From Fimbriimonas sp. (lineage in GTDB: Bacteria > Armatimonadota > Fimbriimonadia > Fimbriimonadales > Fimbriimonadaceae): DNA of 48,449 bases. Below, piece by piece: positions 30,734 to 37,793 of the stretch. Within the stretch, counting starts at the first letter, position 1. Each line of letters begins with the position of its first letter. Made by a program: the position numbers and the translations under genes. The stretch covers positions 1 to 48,449 of the forward strand of contig JARXAE010000007.1 of the NCBI GenBank assembly GCA_029866005.1, given 5' to 3'. The notes under the pieces were generated by a model. That model was not told the DNA's origin. It saw only the letters and a program-made list of their open reading frames with translations, and did not search any database.

Positions 30734-32865
30734 TTCTCGTAGGAATGATTTTCGCCCAAGAAACCCTCCACAGGTTCACGTTCGTTGCCGAGCAGAAGTT
30801 GAACTCAGTAAGCGTTGCTGGCACGTTCAACAACTGGAACAAGGACGCAAATCCAATGCAACTTAGTTCCGATGGACGAACTTGGACCACGAGCATCAAT
30901 CTTGGGCTAGGCAAGCACCAATACAAGTTCATCAAGAACGGTGACCAGTGGATCACCGATCCTAAAGCTACCAAAAACGAAGACGATGGCGGCGGAAACA
31001 TCAACTCGATCCTCTTCATCACACCGCCGGACTACAAGATAAAAGCAAGCCGGACCGACGGTCAAACCGCCAAGAGCGCGATCTACCACGAGCCCCTTGC
31101 GCCGTACTTCAACTTCTACAATGGTAGTGTTCAGCTCAAGTTAAGGTCTCGTCCAGGAGACATCAACTCCGTTAAAGTAGTCTCCGGAAGTGTGGTCACC
31201 ACCGCAAAAGAAACCACCATTGATGAGTTTTATTCCAACTGGAAAGCCGAGCTTCCATGGGACGGAAAGTCCAAACTGTTCTATCGCTTCGAGCTAACTG
31301 ACGGCAGCACCAAGAGTTCCTACTCCTACGCCGTTGATCCCGCCAAAACCGCAGTCTTTATCACCCCTAATTGGGTGCCCCAAACCGTCGTCTACCAGAT
31401 CTTCCCTGATCGATTTGCAAACGGAAACCGATCCAATGACCCGGCGGAAGTCATGCCCTGGGACGCCAAGCCAACGTACAGTAACCGTTATGGCGGAGAT
31501 GTTGCCGGTGTCAGCAAGCACCTCAAGCACCTGAAAGATTTAGGAGTTGGAACCGTCTACTTCAATCCGATCTTCGCTAGCCCAAGCAACCACCGTTACG
31601 AGGCCGATGACTTCTATCAGCCTGATAAAGAGTTCGGAACTCAGTCGGAATTCATCGCACTCACTAAAGAGATGAAAGCGAGCGGAATCCGAACGGTGAT
31701 GGACTTCGTTTTTAACCACACCTCGCCAAACTTCTTTGCTTTTAAGGACCTGGCGGAAAAGGGACAGCAGAGCAAGTACAAGGATTGGTACTTCCCTAAG
31801 TCGTTCCCCGTGGTGAGCGGAGACAGCAAGACCTACGAGGCTTGGTACGGGTTCCCTTCCATGCCAAAAGTCAATATCGTCAATCTAGAAGCAAGAGACT
31901 GGTTCCTTAAGATGGCTCAGTTCTGGCTCAAGAATTCAGCACTTGACGGAATGCGCCTTGATGTCGCGAACGAAGTCAATCCTGAATTTTGGCGAACAAT
32001 GCGCCCGATTGTCAAAAAGGCGAACCCCAACGTTTGGATCATCGGCGAAATCTGGGGCGATGGAAGCCCATGGCTCAAGGGTGATCAATTCGACTCAGTC
32101 ATGAACTACCAGTTCCGCGACGCCTGCCTCAAGTTCATCGCCAAGGGAACAACAAATTCAAAACAGTTCGCCAACCAGCTGATGAAGGTTCACGAGAGCT
32201 ACGTCCCACAGGTGAGCAACAACATGATGAACTTGTTGAGTAGTCACGATACTGCCCGGTTCCTTACGGAAGCGGGTGGTGATAAGGATCTTCAGAAGCT
32301 TGCCGCCGCGGTTCAGTTCACCTGGGTCGGAGCACCGAGCGTCTACTACGGTGAGGAACTTGGCATGGAAGGTGGCGCGGACCCGGATAATCGCCGTGGC
32401 ATGGAGTGGGATAAAGCGACCGCAACCAACAACATGCTAAGCCACTACAAAAAGCTCGCAGCACTTAAGAAGACCAACACTGCACTTTGGACCCCAAACG
32501 TTGAGTTTCTGCAAGTCGACGGCTCTGAAAGCGACCGAGTCGGCGCGTATGTTCGAACCAGTAACAAAGATGCCGTACTCGTTGCGTATAACCGTTCCGA
32601 TGCGGAACAAACAATTTCTATCCGCCCTCCAACAGGCGTGCGAAAGCTCGCAAGCGGGGGACTTTCTGACATCATCTCCGGTGACCGTGTCGCGGTTTCC
32701 GACCGACCAGTAATCATTAAACTGCGACCGAGGTCAGCCCGAGTGCTGGTTCCGTCCGCAAAGAAATCCTCGCTTGCCCCCAAGGTTCAGCTCTTTGCTG
32801 CGTCAAAAGGGGATTCGGTTCAACGCCGAGCGAATTCCATTCAGGAGCAAACACAACAACCATGA
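30730..32865 (+). CDS. GH13 alpha-amylase-family glycosidase with N-terminal CBM48-like domain
   Basis: The 711-aa enzyme should hydrolyse alpha-glucans such as starch, glycogen or maltodextrins. Residues about 12-95 form a CBM48/AMPK-type carbohydrate-binding domain ([32 protein letters not shown]). An immunoglobulin-like alpha-amylase N-domain precedes the GH13 barrel, whose conserved regions are [15 protein letters not shown] (nucleophile Asp411), GEIW (acid/base Glu440) and LLSSHDT (Asp507). This order resembles neopullulanase/cyclomaltodextrinase-type enzymes. The N-terminus [13 protein letters not shown] looks like only the end of a signal peptide, and a stop codon just upstream rules out a longer one, so export is uncertain. 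It overlaps lacI upstream and a prepilin-like gene downstream by 4 bp each. Confidence 0.93.
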
Positions 32866-33752
32866 AAAACAATCGAGCGTTTACGCTCATCGAACTCCTC
32901 GTCGTGATTGCGATCATCGCAATCCTCGCCGCGATCCTCTTCCCAGTCTTCGCTCAGGCGAAAGCTGCAGCTAAGAAGACTTCCTGTCTTTCAAACCTAA
33001 AGCAAACTGGAACCGCAGTTCACATCTATGCATCCGATGCAGACGATAAAATCCCTGGCACCAAGATCTACGAACCATACGTGTTCCACGCGTATCTCAG
33101 ACCTTACGTCAAGAACATGGAGATGTTCAAGAGCCCGGCTTCGCCTTACAAGATTGGAACCTATCAGCGAAAGCAGGGTCAAAATGGATCGGGCAACTAT
33201 GTCATCAATCCGAACGACCCTTGTATCGGTCTTGGCAACTCGGTTCGGGGCGCAGCAAACTTCTACGACGACATCTACCCGCCAACAGACTATGACGTCA
33301 ACATTATCCTGTTCGGATACAAGCAGAACGCGTGCGCAGCAGGCGGAGCAACCGGCACTTACGCTCAACTCGGAACCGATTTGACCGCCGGCGGCACCAA
33401 TGGAGACGGAAACGAGCGAATCGGTGGTAGCCCCACGATGACCTTCACCTCGCAGGCAAAGGTTCCATTGCTCTTCACCTTCCCGGACAACACAGACTGG
33501 CCAGGACAAACGTTCTGGAGCAACAACTACAAGGGCATGCACGGAGACAAGAACAACATCGTTTTTGCTGACAGCCACGCAAAGACCTTCGCAACCAAGG
33601 CAATGCTAGGAGCGTACGGTCGAGCTTATAACAGCACCGACTTCGGCTTCTGGAATACCTGCCCTCCAGCCAACGCTTGGAGCGGAGATCCTAACGCCGG
33701 TCAATGCTTCTACTACTGGGGCACCAACTACGCGGCACCTAACTTCCAGTAA
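32862..33752 (+). CDS. prepilin-type DUF1559-like protein (third copy), coupled to the amylase gene
   Basis: The protein starts [17 protein letters not shown], a class III pilin signal with Ala-Phe at the cleavage site, and continues [37 protein letters not shown]. The C-terminal part has [20 protein letters not shown], close to the family's H-x-x-x-x-N-x-x-F-x-D-x-H-x-K motif. Its start overlaps the amylase stop as ATGA (32862-32865), so it is translated from the same mRNA. Length is 296 aa. The role is unknown; linkage to a glycosidase suggests a surface structure that binds or presents the enzyme or substrate, but that is speculation. A GC-rich hairpin follows. Confidence 0.9.
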
Positions 33753-35049: not shown

Positions 35050-36978
35050 ATGAGCGAACCGGATTGCATGACTTTGCGCGAAGCTGTTGCACAGCTCGGC
35101 ACCGTCGCGCCTGGCGCTCCCCTTTTAGCCCTCGGACAAACCGTATTCTGGGATGAACCCATGAAAGCCGGTCTCGCGCTTGAAGCTGCAAACGCTGGCG
35201 TCGAGTTCGTCGCGGGAGTCCACGACACCGACTACTTCGCTAAAGCTCCTGGCACCAAACACGCCAAAAATCAGTTCCTCACCCTCCCACACAACGACGG
35301 CTCGACAAAGGCCCTCTGGTCTGCCGCCGCCGAATTCTCCTGCCTCTTTGGCTCGGAAACCGTCATCACCAAAGATGCCCTCATCAAAGCAGGACTTCGC
35401 TTCGATCGACTGAACCAAATCCGTAAAGGGTTCCTTGATGAAGCCACTCAAGCTTGGGGATGGCGAGGAATCGTTTCACTGGACGAACAGCCACCGATCA
35501 CATTGGAAGTCAAAGCCGACGCACTGAGTCGAGAACTTTGCAAAACTCTCAAGTGGTCTATCGACGAATCTACCTCGTCGTTCGGCGGCGAAGGCTTCGA
35601 CCGAGCCGTTAAGAAGGGCGATGAATTGAACGCCCACTTCTGCGATTCCGCAGATCGCGACGGACAGACCCTCTCCCAGGTATACCGCGACCTGCTGCCA
35701 AAGATTTATTCATTTGTTGCGAACCGGCCGGTCCAAATGGAGACCACCCAAACCAGCCAACTCCTGAGGTTCAATAGGTCAACCTGCACCCTTCCTCGAT
35801 TCGACCTCCTTCGAAAATTCATCGAGGATTCATCAGCGAGAGAAGCGTACGACCAAGCAATCAAGGGCTTCCCTGGACTCTACAGCCTTGCTAAGTTCGG
35901 AACAGGGGCAATCCCTTTCGACCTCGTCATTCCCGGCGTTGGACGCGGAACGATTCGTGTGGGTAATCGAGGCATCGTCATCAACACCCCTCGACCACAG
36001 TTTCTCTCGTTCAAAAACCCGATACAGTCCCTCGAAGAGTTTGCGAAGCTGATTGAATCCAAGTTTGGAACCGAGTGCGTACTTGTCGGAAAAGCCGTCA
36101 CCCTTATTGGCATGCTTGGACGTGAGTTTGTCTTCTCATTCCACGAAGGAGCCTCATCTTATGTCAAAGCCTCACGGGAGCTACACCGAGCGTTGGACTT
36201 CCGAGTCAATCCAATCCTGCGCATCCGCTACCAACTCTGGGACTCGCTCGAGAACCTGCAGGGCTGGTTCAAGCTTCCCGAGCCATTACACCGCGCATTC
36301 GGCTCTGATGACGTTTGCTTCCCGTCCTTTGCTGCCCGTTGGCGAGCGGTAGGCTTGGAGCAAAAAGAGCGGCTTGCCCGGCTGGGCACCCTCCGAAAGC
36401 CAATCGATCTCGTGCAGTATCTTGAGCAACTCGTCGGTGGCGCTTGGAGCACGCAGGCTAAGGAATACATCGTTCTCCAGCGACAACTCTCTGTCCTATC
36501 GCGTGAAGTAGAGGATCTTAGCGAGAAGCGAACACGCATCTATGGACGACTTAGGGAGATCCGAGGACTATGGCAAGAGCTTGAAAGGCAGAAGGGTGAT
36601 CACTTCCGCGAGCGGATCTTTGATCGGCTCGCCTCCGAAACTGATATGGAAACCCGCGCCCGCTACTCTCAAAGGATATTCCTACTTCAGTCCGAACGCG
36701 ATTCACTGAAGGGTGCCCTTCACAAGCTTGGACGTAAGCAGCGAGAAGCAGCACAAGACCCCGCCGTCATGCGAGCTCATGAACGCCGACGAGAGATCGA
36801 GATCGAAGCCGAGCTCAAACGCCTCAAACTCATTCGAGAGGCAATCGTTTCCAGCACTGGTCTCGAGAATGCCAACCGCCGACCTGCCGCCTGGTGGCTC
36901 CCCATGATCTCACCAGACGGTAAGTTGTTTGATGCCGTGATGAAATCTGCTGAATGCTGGTGGGAGCCAATGAATTGA
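35050..36978 (+). CDS. 642-aa protein of unknown function with C-terminal coiled coil
   Basis: I do not recognise this family. The N-terminal third contains LLALGQTVFWDEPMKAGLAL and VEFVAGVHDTDYFAKAPG, and a hydrophobic/Gly-rich middle follows (FGTGAIPFDLVIPGVGRGTIRVGNRGIV). Residues about 480-600 are rich in Arg, Glu, Lys and Leu with heptad-like spacing, predicting a long coiled coil (LSREVEDLSEKRTRIYGRL; RRREIEIEAELKRLKLI). There is no signal peptide or membrane segment. ATG 35050 has AAGG about 5-6 nt upstream. Its stop overlaps the dapF TTG as TTGA, so the two are translationally coupled. A link to cell-wall precursor or lysine metabolism is possible only through this neighbour. Confidence 0.7.
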   Translation: MSEPDCMTLREAVAQLGTVAPGAPLLALGQTVFWDEPMKAGLALEAANAGVEFVAGVHDTDYFAKAPGTKHAKNQFLTLPHNDGSTKALWSAAAEFSCLFGSETVITKDALIKAGLRFDRLNQIRKGFLDEATQAWGWRGIVSLDEQPPITLEVKADALSRELCKTLKWSIDESTSSFGGEGFDRAVKKGDELNAHFCDSADRDGQTLSQVYRDLLPKIYSFVANRPVQMETTQTSQLLRFNRSTCTLPRFDLLRKFIEDSSAREAYDQAIKGFPGLYSLAKFGTGAIPFDLVIPGVGRGTIRVGNRGIVINTPRPQFLSFKNPIQSLEEFAKLIESKFGTECVLVGKAVTLIGMLGREFVFSFHEGASSYVKASRELHRALDFRVNPILRIRYQLWDSLENLQGWFKLPEPLHRAFGSDDVCFPSFAARWRAVGLEQKERLARLGTLRKPIDLVQYLEQLVGGAWSTQAKEYIVLQRQLSVLSREVEDLSEKRTRIYGRLREIRGLWQELERQKGDHFRERIFDRLASETDMETRARYSQRIFLLQSERDSLKGALHKLGRKQREAAQDPAVMRAHERRREIEIEAELKRLKLIREAIVSSTGLENANRRPAAWWLPMISPDGKLFDAVMKSAECWWEPMN

Positions 36979-37793
36979 AATTCTGGAAAGTTCAATCCAT
37001 CGGGAACCACTTCCCTCTTATCCTGACTTCTGAGTTCTTTGGAGATTTGTCATCTTTGGCGGTCCAAATGTGCCGCGACCACTTTGGCGTCGGCGGTGAC
37101 GGACTGTTGGCAGTCGGAATGGAAGGCGCTGATTTAGTCTTGCGGATGTTTAATCCGGACGGAACCGAGGATTTTTGTGGAAACGGACTGCGATGTGCGG
37201 CACGCTTTGCGTTCGATCAAGGTTTGGTCGGTGCGGGTTTCAACATCCAGCATTTGGGGCGAAAAGTTCCGGTGTCGGTTGAAGGTTCACTGATCAAAAC
37301 AGGGATCGGGACTGCCTCATACGATCCCAAAGACGTCCCAACGATCATCGCCGGGGAACTCTTTGACGAAACAATCTTTGCGGGAAGAGACTCCGATTGG
37401 TCCGTTGTTCTTTCTGGTTCTGCGCTCTCAACCGGCTCAACCCACATCGTTCTCCCCGTCGGATCTCTCCCCGACGACGACGGATTCCGCGCCATCTCCT
37501 CCCGTCTCGAAGTAGATCCGAGATTCCCTCAGCGCACTAGTGTCATCTGGGCTGCCCGGGATGGCGAGGCTCTAAAGATTCGAATCTGGGAACGCGGCGT
37601 AGGCGAAACCCTCGGCTGCGGCACCGGATCTTCCGCCGCCGCCGTCGACTGGATGCGCCGCCGCAAACGAGGCGGACGCATCGAAGTCAAGAACCCTGGC
37701 GGCACCGTGTGGGTAACCGCTGACAGCTGGTCCTCCCCGATCACCCTCGAGGGCGAGGCGACCACGGTGTTCCAAGGCGATTTTCCGATATAA
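36975..37793 (+). CDS. dapF: diaminopimelate epimerase
   Basis: DapF interconverts LL- and meso-diaminopimelate for lysine and peptidoglycan synthesis. Both catalytic cysteines are present: Cys68 in NPDGTEDFCGNGLRC and Cys215 in GETLGCGTGSSA. IWERGVGET supplies the family Glu/Arg, and DHFGVGGDGLL matches the conserved N-terminal domain. The usual GND-F near residue 12 reads GNHF here. TTG 36975 (272 aa, M-K-F-W-K-V) is favoured: GGGAG lies 8 nt upstream, and it gives the family N-terminus and a 4-bp overlap with the preceding stop. An in-frame ATG at 36954 would add 7 residues. The tRNA-Leu gene follows 13 bp after the stop. Confidence 0.93.
   Translation: MKFWKVQSIGNHFPLILTSEFFGDLSSLAVQMCRDHFGVGGDGLLAVGMEGADLVLRMFNPDGTEDFCGNGLRCAARFAFDQGLVGAGFNIQHLGRKVPVSVEGSLIKTGIGTASYDPKDVPTIIAGELFDETIFAGRDSDWSVVLSGSALSTGSTHIVLPVGSLPDDDGFRAISSRLEVDPRFPQRTSVIWAARDGEALKIRIWERGVGETLGCGTGSSAAAVDWMRRRKRGGRIEVKNPGGTVWVTADSWSSPITLEGEATTVFQGDFPI

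Follow-up and report, generated by a model that had tools for sequence, protein, structure and literature searches.

A BshC-fold protein family of Armatimonadota and its association with a diverged DapF paralogue

The locus and its protein family

On the forward strand of the window (the whole stretch of 48,449 nucleotides that was analysed), positions 35050-36978 hold an intact ORF of 642 codons that runs from ATG to TGA. Its TGA (36976-36978) lies over the TTG start (36975) of a dapF-like ORF with four bases shared, an overlap that the preliminary description had reported and that we also found; if the alternative in-frame ATG of the dapF-like ORF at 36954 were used, the overlap with the upstream gene would lengthen. 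The features to which we refer below are as follows.

35050..36978, + strand: BshC-fold protein of an Armatimonadota family, 642 aa (ORF list, 45-member alignment, AlphaFold model and fold match)
35122..35250, + strand: start of the predicted Rossmann/HUP core, residues 25-67, beta1-GQTVFWDEPMK-helix-beta2-HDTDYFAK (G29-K39, H58 and T60-F63 invariant; DSSP strand 25-30, helix 36-49, strand 53-58)
36088..36255, + strand: second half of the predicted Rossmann core, residues 347-402, with GKA, beta4, SxY and beta5 with R391 (G347, K348, A349, S369, Y371 and R391 invariant; DSSP)
36319..36879, + strand: helical/coiled-coil region, residues 424-610, ahead of the RPxxWW segment (DSSP; the whole-length BshC match covers residues 1..638)
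36880..36975, + strand: C-terminal segment with invariant R611, P612, W615 and W616 and a final strand (alignment; AlphaFold model)
36975..37793, + strand: DapF2, TTG start over the upstream stop, alternative ATG 36954 (TIGR00652 146.8 bits, cut-off 114.65; paralogue clade)
37176..37178, + strand: first catalytic Cys of DapF2 (CGNG; C in 27/27 DapF2)
37431..37445, + strand: TGSTH, against canonical MGNPH, at the Asn157 position (S/T in 27/27 DapF2, N in 20/22 canonical)
37533..37550, + strand: RTSVIW, against canonical RTNVxF, at the Asn190 position (S/T in 26/27 DapF2, N in 22/22 canonical)
37617..37619, + strand: second catalytic Cys of DapF2 (GCGTG; C in 27/27 DapF2)

Elsewhere in the window, the protein given by the ORF list at 32862-33752 begins with a type IV pilin-like sequence.

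For the 642-aa protein, no model in Pfam or NCBIfam scored above its cut-off and PHROGs gave no match, so that the earlier reading of an unrecognised family stands at the level of these profile searches. A WW_2 match on the conserved RPxxWW (E 0.009, below the model's own cut-off) was taken as chance, and Pfam searches across the 45 family members together with profile-versus-PDB searches returned coiled-coil noise only.

The contig search yielded 49 relatives with 33-84% identity, mostly labelled as Armatimonadota or its subgroups and some as 'bacterium'; a single one was labelled Methanoregulaceae, which may be a binning error. No relatives were found among viral contigs or plasmids. Of the 291 Armatimonadota genomes searched, 195 carried the family; within the subset of best quality the figure was 148 of 194. 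Because other phyla were reached by one close-relative scan alone, we call the restriction of the family to Armatimonadota likely. In the gene tree (FastTree) the members of each family of genomes, nearly without exception, grouped together on one side of a branch, which points to inheritance by descent, and since the tree follows families in this way the genome counts given in this work are not independent of one another.

The alignment used throughout comprised 45 sequences, namely that of the window and those of 44 of the 49 loci, leaving out L026, L029, L046 and L049 (cut off) and L043 (two frames). It contained ∼50 invariant residues, clustered in LALGQTVFWDEPMK, GVHDTDYFAK, HND...LWSAA.E, AWGWRG, PFD...GRG, GKA, SxY and RPxxWW, and residues 25-67 formed the most conserved block. 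The distinctive N-terminal block noticed earlier proved to be real: VEFVAGVHDTDYFAKAPG spans residues 51-68, a large part of which does not vary (H58, T60, D61, Y62 and F63) or is conserved in at least 90% of the 45 sequences (D59, A64 and K65).

Predicted fold and relation to BshC and class I LysRS

AlphaFold2 run on the 45-sequence alignment gave a model with a mean pLDDT of 92.0 and a pTM of 0.84, and residues 1-449 (the core) modelled alone gave a pLDDT of 89.2. When this core was compared with the PDB by VIA-align, BshC ranked first (4wbd; Z 14.2, 3.8 Å, 290 aligned) and class I LysRS second (1irx; Z 12.7, 3.6 Å, 246 aligned), followed by GlnRS, GluRS and TyrRS at Z ∼8 (8.2) and by USP and NAD synthetase at Z ∼5. 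The whole model returned the same two proteins, BshC (Z 14.1, rmsd 12.1, 435 aligned across residues 1..638) ahead of class I LysRS (Z 13.7). VIA-align itself notes that helical models can reach Z 13-14 by chance, a caveat that is partly answered by the fact that the core kept its score, well above the other rows, after the coiled coil had been dropped. The BshC match is a VIA-align re-ranking of Foldseek's list for a predicted model; Foldseek alone gave no match at E ≤ 0.001, either against the PDB (whole model and core) or against viral models.

The predicted model has an alternating beta-alpha Rossmann core (VIA-align; DSSP), and matches to aminoacyl-tRNA synthetases, USP and NAD synthetase are what a protein of the HUP/class I aminoacyl-tRNA-synthetase-like superfamily should give. 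It also has the architecture described for BshC in the available part of PMC4360819, namely a Rossmann core with inserted motifs and a coiled coil. The likeness to 4wbd covers the core fold and the domain order of core, coiled coil and C-terminal segment and, as judged by eye and not confirmed by hhalign, a GQ...P after strand 1 and a DxD ending strand 2. In contrast, the 642-aa protein is ∼100 residues longer and has other invariant residues. PF10079 (BshC) did not match it at E ≤ 1 and gave nothing at E ≤ 10 when run on the window's genome, and hhalign found no similarity between the family and 4 or 7 BshC sequences (the 7 from three phyla), whether whole or in windows. As the profile-profile comparison finds no link, we describe the relation to BshC as one of fold kinship and not of demonstrated membership. 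A shared fold does not establish function, and the ligation mechanism of BshC itself was still unknown as of 2015, according to the available part of the same source.

With class I LysRS (1irx) the family shares the core fold and, by eye, a D-x-D-x3-K-x-P that the L093 LysRS1 also has, a likeness that hhalign did not confirm. It differs in having no evident tRNA-binding domain, with a coiled coil instead; PF01921 did not match the window's protein, and HIGH or KMSKS motifs were not seen by eye in the 45-sequence alignment. A LysRS function was considered and rejected: only two genomes gave strong class I LysRS matches, above 340 bits, and in the window's genome PF01921 found nothing at E ≤ 0.01. 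As a separate observation, proteins of ∼490-500 aa in L094, L095 and L097-L099 (G001, G003, G022, G021 and G010) matched the class I LysRS model over no more than roughly its positions 20-284, the L094 match being confirmed at 1.4e-46, and a match was also seen in L096 (G074). The proteins of L094, L095 and L097-L099, which by eye seem to have no KMSKS end, may form another LysRS1-like family that does not charge tRNA.

We then considered whether the family is a highly diverged BshC proper, acting in Armatimonadota as the cysteine ligase that yields bacillithiol or a closely related low-molecular-weight thiol. Besides the top fold match, the distribution of the pathway genes speaks for this. 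True BshC (PF10079) occurred in 6 of 291 genomes, all six of them lacking the family, and each of the nine genomes with BshA over cut-off had exactly one of the two: BshC in G188, G189, G214 and G216, and the BshC-fold family in G003, G092, G094, G095 and G274. This pattern fits replacement. However, BshC was confined to two families of genomes (f20 and f30), so that the exclusivity amounts to about two events. Moreover, 190 of the 195 carriers had no BshA over cut-off, and the window's genome had neither BshA nor BshB1 over cut-off, so that bacillithiol cannot be the usual product; a role as general bacillithiol ligase was rejected on the count of only five carriers with BshA. The lack of profile similarity to BshC and the usual companion of the family, a DapF paralogue that bacillithiol synthesis does not need, also weigh against a diverged BshC, and we consider this explanation improbable. 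In G092 (C60:26324-28148) and G095 (C7:64087-65907) a BshB1-like gene lies beside BshA, which would be in keeping with it; neither has a BshC by PF10079, and a ∼900-aa ORF with an LmbE-type stretch lies ∼5 kb away.

The preliminary description had emphasised a long C-terminal coiled coil and had guessed at a role in envelope growth. The helices are real, in that AlphaFold places them at residues 465-523, 530-568 and 571-610, but the protein also has an enzyme-like HUP/BshC-type core, and this leaves the envelope guess without support. A structural or regulatory coiled-coil protein of envelope growth whose synthetase-like core is a dead relic could account for the length of the coil and for the unrecognised HIGH and KMSKS motifs. 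Nevertheless, most of the ∼50 invariant residues fall within the core rather than the coil, inspection by eye revealed neither a signal nor a membrane segment, and a dimerising coiled coil is also part of BshC itself (PMC4360819, available part). A scaffold-only function was rejected, and of all the alternatives weighed in this work we find this one the hardest to believe.

The linked DapF paralogue and its association with the family

The gene downstream scores over the TIGR00652 cut-off and has both catalytic cysteines, as expected of a DapF. The window's genome, however, encodes a canonical DapF elsewhere, which scores 256 bits against 147 for the linked copy and is 32% identical to it. When 27 DapF sequences of the linked type and 22 canonical ones were placed in one tree, the two types formed separate clades (SH-aLRT 99.6), and two DapF copies were present in all but one (G056) of 28 chosen carrier genomes. 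The earlier claim of coupling to an essential peptidoglycan/lysine gene is therefore not supported, as what is linked here is a DapF paralogue that has diverged, which we term DapF2. Since it passes the NCBIfam cut-off, automated annotation would label it diaminopimelate epimerase and its partner hypothetical.

In the Haemophilus enzyme, Asn64, Asn157, Asn190 and Arg209 bind the distal carboxylate of DAP and Glu208 its distal amine, as described in the available part of PMC8225329; cyanobacterial counterparts of DAP-binding residues are given in the available part of PMC12039745. We located the corresponding columns by DapF motifs in the alignment, not by superposition of structures. Both cysteines, N11, E208 and R209 were retained in 27 of 27 DapF2 sequences and N64 in 26 of 27, whereas Asn157 and Asn190 were replaced by Ser or Thr, the window's DapF2 having Ser at both positions. 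In addition, the Phe three residues past position 190 was Trp in 26 of 27, and one residue was missing just ahead of the first catalytic Cys. Given what is retained and what is replaced, the racemisation chemistry should survive with the far end of the pocket changed; as Arg209 is retained, the substrate may still be one whose side chain bears a carboxylate, DAP among them.

These residues bear on a second alternative, in which the pair would belong to cell-wall or DAP/lysine metabolism, with DapF2 as a second DAP epimerase and its partner coupling an acceptor to DAP, lysine or a related compound. The retained E208, R209, N64 and cysteines, the score over the DapF equivalog cut-off and class I LysRS as second fold match are all consistent with it. 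On the other hand, the replacement of both asparagines, the residue lost before the first Cys and the Phe-to-Trp change near position 190 speak against it, and most carriers have a canonical DapF as well. We rate this alternative as unlikely, about on a par with a diverged BshC.

We examined the surroundings of the gene in 87 genomes, hand-picked to cover families rather than drawn at random, and in 55 of the 84 that were assessable a DapF homologue lay directly downstream; among the loci of the contig search, which overlap with this set, 35 of 49 were linked. The intergenic gap in 53 linked genomes had a median of 14 nt and was at most 45 nt in 47 of them. The preliminary description had suggested checking whether the linkage is conserved, and it does hold in the window's family (f1, 40/47) and order (f2, 4/5) and also in f10 (5/5), f24 (2/2), f26 (1/1) and f32 (3/3). 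It was absent from 8 of 52 loci of f1 and f2 and from all 21 assessable loci of f3, f4, f5, f6, f11, f12, f13, f14 and f19, the unlinked families having the DapF paralogue elsewhere in the genome. With the presence of the family across the phylum and of a downstream dapF-like gene in these 55 genomes, the ORF and its overlap cannot be put down to chance. On the FastTree tree the linked state requires six changes and occurs either side of the midpoint root, which is most simply read as an old pair broken up in some lineages, with repeated gain also compatible.

Other neighbours varied. A small acyl-CoA-thioesterase-like (4HBT) gene lay directly upstream in 8 of 49 loci (L003, L004, L005, L006, L010, L018, L026 and L050), that of L003 matching PF13279. 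The Chthonomonadaceae-type loci L033-L036 and L046 had different neighbours, with a ∼337-aa gene upstream in 5/5 and a ∼640-aa gene downstream in four.

The association extends beyond adjacency. By the DapF model, at least two DapF homologues were found in 171 of 195 carriers as opposed to 12 of 96 non-carriers, with 24 carriers and 84 non-carriers having one or none (Fisher p 2e-37, a value that ignores shared descent). Six of the 12 non-carriers with two DapF genes (G022, G057, G102, G162, G164 and G169) are 64-84% complete and belong to families that otherwise carry the gene. Since scores of a DapF2 profile do not separate the paralogues (canonical DapF also reached ∼295-300 bits), they were typed by copy number and residues, and single DapF copies by comparing searches with the DapF model and the DapF2 profile. 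Typed in this way, 18 of 195 carriers had no DapF2-type copy found; among these, a single DapF of canonical type was seen in all 7 carriers of f43 and in G121, G134, G135 and G136 of f1. As a side observation, G209 and G211 (88% and 80% complete) had probable DapF2-type copies with no BshC-fold gene.

Such a pattern might also arise from phylogenetic inertia, if two unrelated genes had been kept adjacent and co-occurring by descent, and a gene tree that follows families, with the resulting non-independence of genome counts, is what this would produce. Yet the association persisted when families were scored by majority (gene and two DapF together in 24 families, the gene alone in 2, two DapF alone in 4, none of these in 15; Fisher p 1e-6), and it persisted in f3, f6, f11-f13 and f19, where the genes are unlinked. 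Furthermore, the reduced 1.5-Mb genomes G132 and G133, from the window's own family, lacked both together, with no gene and no second DapF. We therefore think inertia a poor explanation, slightly less probable than the two enzymatic alternatives above. Presence and absence also went together within f8, where G005 has the gene and a second DapF and G006 neither, and within f40, where G251 has both and G250 and G252 neither.

A proposed racemase-ligase pair

Because the two proteins travel together across the phylum, they have the look of adjacent steps in a biosynthetic pathway that is yet to be described. By analogy with known systems we infer, giving it an even chance, that an amino-acid racemase or epimerase feeds a BshC-like and possibly ATP-dependent ligase. 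DapF2 would act as a cofactor-independent racemase/epimerase that inverts an amino-acid centre, on a substrate that may be other than DAP or bound differently from DAP. The 642-aa protein, with a predicted BshC fold in which insertions and a coiled coil are added to a Rossmann core of the HUP/class I aminoacyl-tRNA-synthetase-like type, would then, probably with ATP, join the DapF2 product or another amino acid (e.g. cysteine) to an acceptor. The order might also be the reverse, with ligation coming first and epimerisation by DapF2 afterwards.

There is a precedent for such a pair in PddB, a Dab racemase derived from DapF that supplies D-Dab and whose gene is in translational coupling with that of the poly-D-Dab synthetase PddA, an adenylating enzyme, as described in the available part of PMC8225329. 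There too, the partner of the DapF-derived racemase activates amino acids and the genome has a presumed housekeeping dapF besides; in PddB the residues matching Asn64, Asn157 and Asn190 are replaced. The two systems differ in that PddB is actinobacterial and has the matches of both N64 and R209 replaced (same source, available part), residues that DapF2 keeps, and in that PddA is an adenylating synthetase whereas the 642-aa protein has no Pfam match to an adenylation domain. Histidine racemase is a further DapF-derived or DapF-like racemase with a new substrate, according to the available part of PMC11602996. Our literature search, with subscription papers mostly outside it, returned no paper joining Fimbriimonas or Armatimonad with dapF, or BshC with lysyl-tRNA synthetase, which is weak evidence of novelty.

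Rather than a coiled-coil protein bound to an essential gene of the wall, the window thus contains a member of a new family with the BshC fold, whose partner is a DapF paralogue that has become specialised. More tentatively than the racemase-ligase reading itself, we suggest that the pair may be a phylum-wide ancestral module, in which most Armatimonadota would use a new HUP-fold ligase and a new DapF-derived racemase to make a metabolite, a cofactor or a component of the wall that contains a D-amino acid, and in which the ligase may also replace BshC in a few lineages. The two enzymes can be purified and their substrates found by screening, and the BshC/LysRS1 group gains a relative. For a poorly known phylum, automated annotation as described above would hide a likely pathway in two thirds of the sampled genomes.
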